Origin: Ktedonospora formicarum
Lineage (GTDB): Bacteria > Chloroflexota > Ktedonobacteria > Ktedonobacterales > Ktedonobacteraceae
NCBI RefSeq assembly: GCF_016587355.1
Contig: NZ_BNJF01000002.1
Span: forward strand, 372,001-436,000
DNA: 64,000 nucleotides
Direction: 5' to 3'
A program made the translations under genes and the position numbers. Shown piece after piece: positions 14,136-17,972 of this stretch (position 1 is the first letter of the stretch; the number at the start of each line of letters is the position of its first letter). The notes below the pieces were generated by a model that did no database searches, was not told the DNA's origin, and saw only the letters and a list, made by a program, of their open reading frames with translations.

Positions 14136-14216
14136 GTACATAGTGTATCTTATCTAGGGAAAAGTATACCATCTTTTGAAATAAAGTACAATGTGTATCT
14201 AAAAATATGGTATACT
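14136..14216. promoter_or_regulatory. Divergent promoters and paired operators between MFS and tetR
   Basis: Each direction has the extended -10 element TGGTATACT: plus strand at 14208-14216, minus strand at 14171-14163, the two being halves of a 10-bp inverted repeat ATGGTATACT. A 17-bp direct repeat (14 of 17 identical), GTACATAGTGTATCTTA at 14136 and GTACAATGTGTATCTAA at 14186, recurs exactly 50 bp apart, on the same face of the helix. One copy covers the minus-strand leader, the other the -35 region. These are likely TetR operators. Confidence 0.6.
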
Positions 14217-14251
14217 CATGGCAGAGACTTTATAAAAGAGGCGGGTTTGTT

Positions 14252-14945: not shown

Positions 14946-15770
14946 CTAGAACTGATAGCGAAAGATCCAGCCTCCTTCCTTCCTCAATGCAGGCAAACTG
15001 TACATCAAGCGGCAAGTAGCGCGATAGGCCCAGGGTGTCCTGGCAACATATGGCGATCCGACGATAGATGATGTTCCAATGAGTTTGAGGAGCGGATCCC
15101 ACCTTTCAGGCTCATGAGGATCATCGAAGCCTGGATTGGCAGGCTTCATACCAATCGCCTTGATCGATGGATGAGAGACAATAAGTCGCGACGCCAGCTT
15201 AGTGTAGCCATTGAACGCCAATTGCCCACCTGGGAAATGAGCGGTTAATCGTCTGAAGAGTTGCGTGATTTCATTTTCGGTCAGAAATGGCAGCAACCCA
15301 TCTGCAACGATGATAGCAGGATAATCCGTAGGAATAGCATCCAGACAGTGGGGACTGGTCAACGAAGCGCCAATCATCTGATATCCAGCATCTTCAGTGT
15401 AGAAATGGCGGCGCATCTCAATCACATCGGGATAGTCTATGTCGAACCAGCGAACGCTCTTCGGCGGTTTGACCCGTTCTCTTCGACTGTCCAGACCACA
15501 TCCCAGATCCAGCACTGTTGCATCCGGATGATCTGCGAGATATTCCGCTGTACAGTCATCAAGCATCCTTGCTCGGATTGCCCCTCCAAAGCTCTCTTTT
15601 TGCGGGATTTTCAATTTTTGGAAGTCGTAATCAAGCTGCTGGGCGATCTCCTCGGCTTTCTTATCACCCAGAATCGGGCGCTTTGAGCGATTATCCATCG
15701 CCCTGGTTGCGAGTGTGAGAAGGAGTGTTTCTTGCACCCCTGTAAAGGGAACATTGAAAGTCTTCATCAT
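14946..15770 (-). CDS. Class I SAM-dependent methyltransferase, LCM/PPM-like
   Basis: About 274 residues. The SAM-binding loop is ATVLDLGCGLDSRR, followed by VRWFDIDYPDVIEMRR, the acidic loop typical of the leucine carboxyl methyltransferase-like (TcmP/PPM) family, and IIVADGLLPFLTENEITQLFRRL, also a family hallmark. These enzymes O-methylate small molecules, often polyketides; the substrate is unknown. The paired ATG codons at 15770 and 15767 follow AAAGGAAAC. It lies 58 bp after the tetR stop on the same strand and is probably co-transcribed from the palindromic promoter. Confidence 0.85.
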   Translation of the reverse strand: MMKTFNVPFTGVQETLLLTLATRAMDNRSKRPILGDKKAEEIAQQLDYDFQKLKIPQKESFGGAIRARMLDDCTAEYLADHPDATVLDLGCGLDSRRERVKPPKSVRWFDIDYPDVIEMRRHFYTEDAGYQMIGASLTSPHCLDAIPTDYPAIIVADGLLPFLTENEITQLFRRLTAHFPGGQLAFNGYTKLASRLIVSHPSIKAIGMKPANPGFDDPHEPERWDPLLKLIGTSSIVGSPYVARTPWAYRATCRLMYSLPALRKEGGWIFRYQF

Positions 15771-15828: not shown

Positions 15829-16524
15829 TCAACTGGCTGTTGGTGAATCAATGACGATTCCTGCAACCACTGAGGCAATGAGATATTCTCGCCCCTGAGC
15901 CAAACTTGAAGGAGCTACTTCAGCCTCTATCTCTGGCAGGAAGGTCTGGTAGAGAGGTAAAGAGGCCAGGTAAGACAGGCAGGTCTGGAGAGCTTGCATC
16001 AATTGAATGATAGGAGAATAATCAGATCGCAGGATCCCAGCTAACTGAGCCTGTCGAAAAATGTGCTCCAACTGTTCAACTTTGTCTGTGGGTAAATGTG
16101 TGCTAATCTTTGCATAGGTTTGCCACCCTTCCGCCATTTCCCAGAGTAATATACGCATCAGGCGCGGATGTTCAACCAGGTGATCGAACAAACCACCAAT
16201 TGCGGTTTCGAGAAAGGCTCGGAACTGGCTTGCCTCCAATGGGGATTTTGCTTGCTCAAATAAGGGAGCAAAGGCACGCGCCCGCAATTCGTTAGCCTCC
16301 CTATGAGCACGTCTCAGTACTTCAGTATAAAGGTTTAGCTTATCGCCGAAATACTGAAAGATTAAACTCTTCGTGTGGTTCGCGAGAACCGCGATAGCTT
16401 CTACAGATGTCCCGGCAAACCCATGCTGAGCGAATAGGGTTTCCGCTGCGTTGAGAATATTCTCACGCGTTCTTTCCGCATCATAGATCCGCTCTCGTCC
16501 CCGTTTTCTTCCAGATTCAGGCAT
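15829..16524 (-). CDS. TetR family regulator
   Basis: 231 residues. The TetR DNA-binding domain is standard: RTRENILNAAETLFAQHGFAGTSVEAIA, then HTKSLIFQYFGDKLNLYTEVLRRA. The rest is a helical ligand-binding domain. The ATG at 16524 follows GGGAAGGTG; a longer frame runs upstream only because the promoter region lacks stops. The predicted transcript begins about 33 bases upstream, at the centre of a 64-bp palindrome with the core TGACCGGTCA, a typical TetR half-site pair. Autorepression together with the downstream methyltransferase is the simplest reading. Confidence 0.9.
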   Translation of the reverse strand: MPESGRKRGRERIYDAERTRENILNAAETLFAQHGFAGTSVEAIAVLANHTKSLIFQYFGDKLNLYTEVLRRAHREANELRARAFAPLFEQAKSPLEASQFRAFLETAIGGLFDHLVEHPRLMRILLWEMAEGWQTYAKISTHLPTDKVEQLEHIFRQAQLAGILRSDYSPIIQLMQALQTCLSYLASLPLYQTFLPEIEAEVAPSSLAQGREYLIASVVAGIVIDSPTAS

Positions 16525-16525
16525 A

Positions 16526-16589
16526 ACAATTTCACCTTCCCTATTTATAATCTGACCGGTCAGATTATAAATAGGGAAGGTGAAATTGT
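16526..16589. promoter_or_regulatory. 64-bp perfect palindrome carrying a consensus promoter and TetR operator
   Basis: Arms 16526-16557 and 16558-16589 are exact reverse complements over 32 bp each. On the minus strand TTGACA (16592-16587) and TATAAT (16569-16564) are 17 bp apart, a full sigma-70 consensus, giving a start near the centre. The centre is TCTGACCGGTCAGA. Because of the symmetry the plus strand has the same -10 box (16546-16551) with a weaker -35 (ATAACA, 16523-16528). The leader of tetR, including its ribosome-binding site, is the other arm. Confidence 0.9.
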
Positions 16590-16732
16590 CAAGAGAAAAG
16601 GCTCTCAGATATGTTGTTTCATAAACATCCGTTTTTTGACACGCCTCCCCAACCGCATGCATAAACTCAGGAACATCGGTTATGCTACAAAAAACTCAGC
16701 CTTTGCTACGAAAGCACACTTTGTGACACTGG

Positions 16733-17821
16733 CTAAGGAACCATGCCCAGGCCTACCAATCCCAGTGTCTCTGGGAAACCGCAGAGCAAATTGGCATTTT
16801 GAATAGCCTGACCCGAGGCCCCCTTAACCAGGTTATCCAGGCAAGCGACAACGATCAAGCGTTGCGTGCGTTTATCAACGATTGGATAGAGAAAACAATG
16901 ATTGCTTCCAACGGTCCATTTCGTATGTGGAGCCTGATCAACTACATGCACAAACGACTCATTCGCATAGAAATCCCGATATAATGCATACAATTCCTCG
17001 TTTGCTGGGATGTGTCCCTGGTCATCTGCTCGCAACTCGGCATAGCTCGTCGAGAGAATCCCACGCGTCATCGGCGCGATATGTGGCACAAACGTCAACC
17101 GTAGCCCACCCTCAACAGGATGACCACCAGTTGCAGCGGCGGCTTCAAGCTCCTGTACTATTTCTGGCAGATGACGGTGCCCCGCAAGGCTGTATGCCCA
17201 CGCATCCTCATTCGCTTCTGGATAATGGTAAGAGAGGGCGGGAGTACGCCCTCCTCCACTGATGCCTGTGATAGAGGTAATAATCACGTTAGGGCCAACT
17301 ATGCCAGCCACCAGAGCAGGAGTGAGTGCCAGAATGGCGGCGGTTGAGTGGCAGCCGGGATTGGCGACAAGTTGCGAATGACAGACCTGTTCACGATAAC
17401 GTTCTGGCAGGCCATAGACGGCGCTCTTCAGGAGAGCGGGAGCAGGGTGAGTATGGGTGTACCACTCCTCATAGACCTCGCTCTCATGGAGGCGAAAATC
17501 CGCTGATAGATCGACCACTTTAATTCCACACTCGATCAGCCGCTCCACTGCTGAAGCAGCCGCCGCATGTGGAAGGCACACAAAGGCGAGGTCAGTCTGG
17601 GCAGGCTCTTCAGTGATGACAAGAGCAGGATCCACACCAGGCGTTTGCTGACCAGATGGTGGAGGAAGCCTCCGCAGGTGTGGAAATATCTCCTCCAAGC
17701 GCTTGCCCACCGCGCTACGCCCAATCACTGAAACGACTCGAAACTCAGGATGCTGGGCCAGTAAGCGCACTAACTCCAATGCTGTATAACTGGTAATATT
17801 AATAATCGAAACAGTTCTCAT
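16733..17821 (-). CDS. argC: N-acetyl-gamma-glutamyl-phosphate reductase
   Basis: 362 residues. The active-site cysteine is in VANPGCHSTAA near residue 155, with VCLPHAAAA and KVVDLSADFRL before it and GISGGGRTP after it; the C-terminal VGSNHCFLYP and KGASGQAIQNANLL complete the family pattern. It performs the NADPH-dependent third step of arginine synthesis. The N-terminal nucleotide loop reads SINITSYTALELVRLL where GYxG is usual, so one conserved Gly is Ser. The ATG at 17821 has AGAGGGAC upstream. It is the last gene of argB-argJ-argC, 151 bp after argJ. Confidence 0.95.
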   Translation of the reverse strand: MRTVSIINITSYTALELVRLLAQHPEFRVVSVIGRSAVGKRLEEIFPHLRRLPPPSGQQTPGVDPALVITEEPAQTDLAFVCLPHAAAASAVERLIECGIKVVDLSADFRLHESEVYEEWYTHTHPAPALLKSAVYGLPERYREQVCHSQLVANPGCHSTAAILALTPALVAGIVGPNVIITSITGISGGGRTPALSYHYPEANEDAWAYSLAGHRHLPEIVQELEAAAATGGHPVEGGLRLTFVPHIAPMTRGILSTSYAELRADDQGHIPANEELYALYRDFYANESFVHVVDQAPHTKWTVGSNHCFLYPIVDKRTQRLIVVACLDNLVKGASGQAIQNANLLCGFPETLGLVGLGMVP

Positions 17822-17972
17822 CTGCGTCCCTCTCATCTCTCCACGTAACCGAGGCAATGCGCTCGTTTGATGGTTCTCTCTTCTGTACTGCGCCTGCTAA
17901 AGAGGTTAGAATGGGGAGTCACGCGCAAAGGCGGGAAGCGGGGAGAAAATGATGTTTCCCCCCGCTTCCTGC

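Follow-up and report, generated by a model that had tools for sequence, protein, structure and literature searches.

TetR-type autorepressors carry TetR_N and TetR_C domains, have their operator between the −10 element and the leader of their own gene, and precede a short set of downstream genes. The locus described here, from a soil bacterium, has the same domains, a probable operator in that position and a short set of downstream genes; it differs in a palindrome that far exceeds the 10-bp operator core and in a downstream gene for a methyltransferase. A joint change of the two halves of a symmetric operator is usually ascribed to two mutations and selection. In IS10-type protection, a terminal inverted repeat hides the ribosome-binding site only in RNA that enters from outside.

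Passages in two papers (PMC8604942, PMC8794818) describe how template switching (quasi-palindrome correction) inverts spacers and homogenises arms, and concern RNA genes and yeast coding genes. The stems described below resemble these products in their identical arms, longer arms, inverted spacers and multi-base changes made in one step; the difference is that here a repressor operator would be the seed and the copied stretch would be a whole working promoter, from the −35 to the start codon. In Ktedonobacter, a large share of the long stems show template-switch marks between close species. Our literature search found no paper on Ktedonobacter palindromes and none on template switching at operators. 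An excerpt of the work of Warman and co-workers on bidirectional promoters of E. coli (PMC12825309) describes opposite orientations that are not usable simultaneously, with one shared −10 and starts on either side of it or within it.

From comparisons of DNA and protein sequences we consider it likely that the locus is an autorepressed tetR promoter of the ordinary kind, and that template-switch copying from arm to arm has lengthened its operator dyad and keeps it perfect.

The tetR promoter and its palindrome

The window, by which we mean the whole stretch of DNA analysed (64 kb), contains a perfect palindrome of 64 bp at 16526–16589. Its arms (16526–16557 and 16558–16589) are 32 nt each, 100% complementary and separated by 0 nt, and it is the only perfect stem in the window with arms of at least 16. 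In the 10.67-Mb genome the palindrome is single-copy; the sole two matches are its own site on either strand, and a reading as a genome repeat was rejected for that reason. The largest arm in three first-order Markov simulations (800 kb) was at most 10, and an origin by chance is excluded. A reading as the end of a mobile element was considered and rejected, and no intrinsic terminator (G+C-rich stem, loop of 3–8, T run) was found in 16400–16760. An Rfam search gave 24 matches up to an E-value of 1, mostly to microRNA hairpin models, none of which reached the gathering score.

The −35 of tetR, TTGACA, lies at 16587–16592 on the minus strand, with its ACA inside the palindrome, and the −10, TATAAT, at 16564–16569, with a spacer of 17 and 12/12 consensus letters; from the spacing, the start is expected at ~16557. 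The plus strand has the mirror −10, TATAAT (16546–16551), and 17 nt before it a −35-like ATAACA (16523–16528, 4/6), which overlaps the tetR start codon. This mirror promoter scores 10/12, faces the end of argC and would start at ~16558. GGGAAGG (16535–16541, minus strand) is the likely ribosome-binding site of tetR, and its mirror image, CCTTCCC, lies in the spacer of the tetR promoter. The sequence-only reading had described a perfect palindrome of 64 bp, a perfect minus-strand promoter, a weaker plus-strand promoter with the same −10 and a ribosome-binding site within one arm, and all of this was borne out.

The tetR gene (15829–16524, minus strand) starts at 16524, one base past the palindrome, and encodes a protein of 231 aa. 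The product belongs to the TetR family by Pfam: TetR_N matched at 4.1e-12 with 46.1 bits against a cut-off of 24, and two TetR_C models also passed. Next comes the probable regulated gene (14946–15770, minus strand), which encodes a SAM-dependent methyltransferase of the LCM/TIGR00027 kind (Pfam LCM at 3.8e-14; NCBIfam TIGR00027 below its cut-off). The upstream neighbour argC (16733–17827, minus strand) runs in the same direction as tetR. Elsewhere in the window, at 14145–14230, AGTATACCAT and ATGGTATACT lie ~35 bp apart between an MFS gene and another tetR-like gene (at 14207 on the plus strand), and form a possible operator pair.

Operator and homologous loci

The centre of the palindrome, TGACCGGTCA (16553–16562), is very probably the operator of the repressor, because the operator letters covary with a residue of the recognition helix. 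The residue is the third of the helix motif GYNKSLIFQYF, which we take to be part of the TetR-family recognition helix. In 27 of 35 homologues the motif begins with GYN, and 19 of these 27 have TAAC half-sites. The 8 non-GYN homologues all have another operator: D goes with TCAC (5/5) and A or T with TGAC (3/3), the tetR of the window (NHT) being one of the latter three. In L007 and L058 the fourth residue of the motif is V or I, and TAAG occurs on both halves or one. Two N-type homologues, L024 and L025, depart from the rule, and four N-type homologues had no operator in the stretch inspected. The exact operator ATCTGACYRGTCAGAT has one match in the genome, at the palindrome. The covariation of protein and DNA over the 35 homologues supports the earlier suggestion that the centre is a natural TetR site. 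Other tetR homologues stand before a cytochrome P450, MFS or ABC gene; the cytochrome P450 gene directly follows the homologue in 5 of 10 loci checked (L004, L009, L006, L011, L012), as a recurrent two-gene cassette.

Among 46 tetR-homologous loci, with that of the window as L003, four have a perfect palindrome with arms of at least 20 and a loop of at most 2 (L003, 64 bp; L007, 58; L012, 52; L005, 44). Palindromes with one mismatch occur at the same place in L021 (50 bp) and L004 (44 bp). The homologous palindromes of the three other genomes (44–58 bp) thus have the same place and different sequences.

The symmetry of the arms was assessed in 27 loci, chosen by hand out of 47 (the 46 and L079); weak homology, the lack of a recognisable promoter or a wrong start led to the exclusion of L014, L019, L020, L023, L026–L031, L040–L042, L062, L064–L068 and L079. 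Over the 15 positions beyond the −10, the matches within a genome were 15/15 in L003 and L007, 11/15 in L021 and 10/15 in L004, with a mean of 5.7. Across genomes the mean was 4.5, with at least 11 matches in 2 of 702 pairs (p = 0.002, by a permutation that ignores relatedness). The −10 is mirrored at 6/6 in 7 of the 27 loci, in four different spellings, which was above 20000 of 20000 permutations that likewise ignore relatedness. Long arms are absent in 21 of the 27 homologues, and in L013 spacer and leader share a further mirror of 14 bp, which is out of the main register. Beyond the operator, the arms hold the −10 together with the spacer and the ribosome-binding site. Their symmetry is private to each genome, whereas arms read by a protein should also match from species to species; reading by one protein would therefore hardly be possible.

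Symmetric arm change at the tetR locus is seen only in the comparison of L003 with L004. Six of the first 24 pairs differ; 4 are one-sided or mismatched and 2 are symmetric, one in the operator and one (pair 21) in the spacer/leader. The closest other tetR has 55–56% identity, and no relative above 56% was found among 61 relatives, 47 genomes of the class and GTDB genome contigs; a copying event can thus not be placed on tetR's own branch. The GTDB contig search kept 80 loci, eight of which are at least 43% identical along most of the protein, and a search of 61 genomes with the promoter DNA gave matches only in G000, G011, G007 and, weakly, G018. In the sister pair L007/L058 the leaders align with a 10-nt gap, and L058 may be a decayed palindrome. 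The use of this pair as proof of copying from spacer to leader was dropped, as the gapped alignment shows that the leaders are alignable.

Long stems in the genus and copying between arms

Stems with arms of at least 20 and loops of at most 8 were counted in the window genome (21 in 800 kb) and, within the same genus, in G003 (22 and 38 in two 200-kb sets), G001 (15 in 200 kb) and G002 (34 in 220 kb). Small controls gave 0 in 200 kb (G007), 2 in 200 kb (G051) and 0 in 50 kb (E. coli K-12). Long perfect stems are typical of the genus, and since they are common there, the place of the tetR palindrome is odder than its length. In 1.2 Mb sampled, 17 of 28 palindromes (arm of at least 16, loop of at most 2) lie within 60 nt of the 3′ end of an ORF; a palindrome over a promoter is a rare case. 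Two loopless or nearly loopless palindromes lie between divergent genes of the window genome (L187:13033–13092, 60 bp; L188:10635–10676, 42 bp) and are possibly operators, the second 200 bp ahead of a regulator-like gene with a Sugar-bind match (Pfam).

A 200-kb stretch of G003 yielded 46 perfect stems with arms of at least 12; of these, 35 had a counterpart in collinear G002, 26 had one in G001 and 1 had one in G000. The comparison with G002 (870 pairs) gave 48 two-sided changes, 45 of which still pair, and 35 one-sided ones; that with G001 (568 pairs) gave 47 two-sided (45 still pairing) and 9 one-sided. When the pairing was slid by 1–5 columns, the two-sided changes numbered 5–13 (G002) and 7–13 (G001). 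Transversions made up 19/45 (G002) and 21/45 (G001) of the symmetric changes. Symmetric change alone could also be the result of selection for hairpins.

The orientation of the loops was compared in the same genomes. For 31 stems in G002, 19 loops had the same orientation, 11 were inverted and 1 was unclear; 10 were exactly the same and 6 exactly inverted, two of the latter being short loops with a small margin. For 22 stems in G001 the numbers were 11 same, 7 inverted and 4 unclear (exact: 6 same, 2 inverted). Inversion of the loop speaks for copying, because selection on an RNA hairpin does not favour inverted loops; the tetR palindrome itself is loopless. The sequence-only reading held that so long a palindrome is unstable unless selected or very recent. 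This assumption is not needed, as long perfect stems belong to the genus at large and symmetric change renews them.

The gene-end hairpins of G003 (C1:3200000–3399999, against G002 and G001; L272–L302, L235) are very long and perfect, 38 having arms of at least 20 in 200 kb, and roughly one third of the loops of Ktedonobacter gene-end hairpins look inverted between species. In the same material, a 1.9-kb stretch (L235:10884–12811) has many copies in G003, G001, G002 and G000 at 73–99% identity, and is probably an insertion sequence. Loss of the hairpin nuclease SbcCD was considered as a possible cause; SbcD (TIGR00619) gave only sub-threshold matches in 10 of 10 Ktedonobacteria (G000, G001, G002, G003, G007, G011, G024, G026, G006 and G036); 8 of 14 control genomes had a match above the cut-off.

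The same palindrome anatomy was found at a PadR-like gene (Pfam PadR, Vir_act_alpha_C) in three Ktedonobacter genomes. The palindromes are perfect in L252 (60 bp), L269 (58 bp) and L254 (64 bp) and have one mismatch in L253 (58 bp). L252 and L269 belong to one genome and encode proteins that are 95% identical; the sole differences between their palindromes are a mirrored transversion and a mirrored 1-nt indel. The right arm of L254 has an additional A, which matches the longer run of T in the left arm and extends the arms from 29 to 32. Such changes would be expected if one arm served as the template for the other. The PadR-like gene (L243:9721–9780, L252–L254, L269) has no ATG, GTG or TTG near the expected start; its frame points to ATT as the start codon, immediately following the palindrome, an arm of which holds GGCGGAGAAAG or GGAGGAGAAAG.

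We propose the following course of events at tetR. A TetR-type repressor would autoregulate its own promoter, which would serve tetR and the methyltransferase gene, and a short operator dyad between the −10 and the leader would have been the seed. Template switching between the arms during DNA synthesis would then have lengthened the dyad to 64 bp, one arm being copied as the reverse complement onto the other, and would keep the arms perfect. The copied stretch would begin inside the −35, take in spacer and −10, and end in the other arm one base short of the start codon; the ribosome-binding site, rich in purines, would thereby have become the mirror image of the pyrimidine-rich spacer. The mirrored ACA of the −35 may point to a direction from spacer to leader. 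We infer this mutational step from the rest of the genus and the other homologues: the clear signs of copying, that is, the loop inversions and the mirrored indels, are seen only at other loci of the genus. The evidence is sequence-based and comprises the palindrome, the promoter, the covariation of the operator, the genome-private symmetry of the arms, the genus-wide symmetric change and the inversion of loops.

On the wider reading, that palindrome copying is unusually active in Ktedonobacter and that its regulatory DNA evolves by mirror copying, we would put an even chance. Operators would act as seeds, spacers would turn into leaders with a ribosome-binding site or such leaders into spacers, and a single step would change both sides of an operator, a −10 box or a terminator hairpin. 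If this is true, the half-sites of a repressor could change together as the recognition helix changes. At tetR, promoter, operator and ribosome-binding site appear to have been copied as one mirror image. Since the sister genomes that show mirrored indels and inverted loops come from cultured strains, the process is accessible to measurement, in its rate as well as its enzymes.

Alternative explanations

Selection could have acted on the symmetry itself, if a long dyad were needed by several repressor dimers or for a cruciform. The doubled operators of many homologues (for example L012, L015 and L008) and the retention of symmetry across genera agree with this, but the outer arms are unrelated in sequence even between genomes whose recognition helices are nearly identical, and most homologues lack them. 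With respect to a cruciform, the centre of the palindrome is G+C-rich and arm length is not conserved among the homologues. Inverted loops and mirrored indels are not predicted by selection, and we regard this explanation as unlikely.

The palindrome might also act as an RNA insulator: RNA reading through from argC, which lies upstream in the same direction, would fold into a stem of 32 bp that hides the ribosome-binding site of tetR, and only RNA started at the centre would be translated. Folding calculations are consistent with this, as the read-through RNA is predicted at −73.4 kcal/mol (z −7.3) with the ribosome-binding site paired, and the centre-started RNA is predicted to leave it mostly open (z +0.5). 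The arrangement would be analogous to IS10 in that the ribosome-binding site is buried only in externally started RNA, with the difference that no transposon is present here. However, the palindromes of L012, L005 and L021 end before the ribosome-binding site of the leader, and insulation is not a shared requirement, because the gene upstream of L007 is divergent. As the origin of the symmetry we hold insulation to be rather improbable; as a side effect it could still be of use and help to keep the palindrome.

A selected two-way promoter would force RNA polymerase into mutually exclusive orientations, and its rightward RNA would be an antisense regulator of argC or part of a toggle. The 10/12 promoter on the plus strand is there, and an operator at the centre would cover both start points, but the plus side carries no gene. 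The mirror −35 reaches 4/6 in L003 and only 1–3/6 in the six other homologues whose −10 is mirrored at 6/6. The palindrome resembles the E. coli bidirectional promoters, as far as the excerpt (PMC12825309) describes them, in having two opposed promoters whose use would be mutually exclusive; it differs in that the −10 is not shared, two separate hexamers (16546–16551 and 16564–16569) lying 12 bp apart with both starts between them.

The sister species G002 and G001 are collinear with the window over argC-argJ-argB; the DNA homology ends with the stop codon of argC. Neither tetR nor the methyltransferase gene stands beside argC in these species, nor does argC stand beside tetR there. In the window, the tetR-methyltransferase stretch begins right after the argC stop (16600–16732), where the homology to K. 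robiniae and K. racemifer ends; it is either an insertion in the window genome or was lost in the sisters. Because neither the mirror −35 nor the argC neighbourhood is shared, the rightward promoter and the target of its antisense RNA seem to have arisen by accident. The argC-facing promoter is probably a by-product of the mirror rather than a device, and would make a weak, short antisense RNA at most. The idea of a purposeful two-way promoter or antisense RNA, put forward in the sequence-only reading, is not supported and in our view highly improbable, and a strong second promoter in such a palindrome is not necessarily functional.

Lastly, we give almost no credence to an assembly fold-back or chimera: perfect palindromes can mislead short-read assembly, but an artefact is unlikely here, as the homologues in independent genomes bear palindromes at the same place, which differ in sequence and so point to neither a shared repeat nor a fold-back, and the palindrome sits inside a 1.7-Mb contig with unique flanks.
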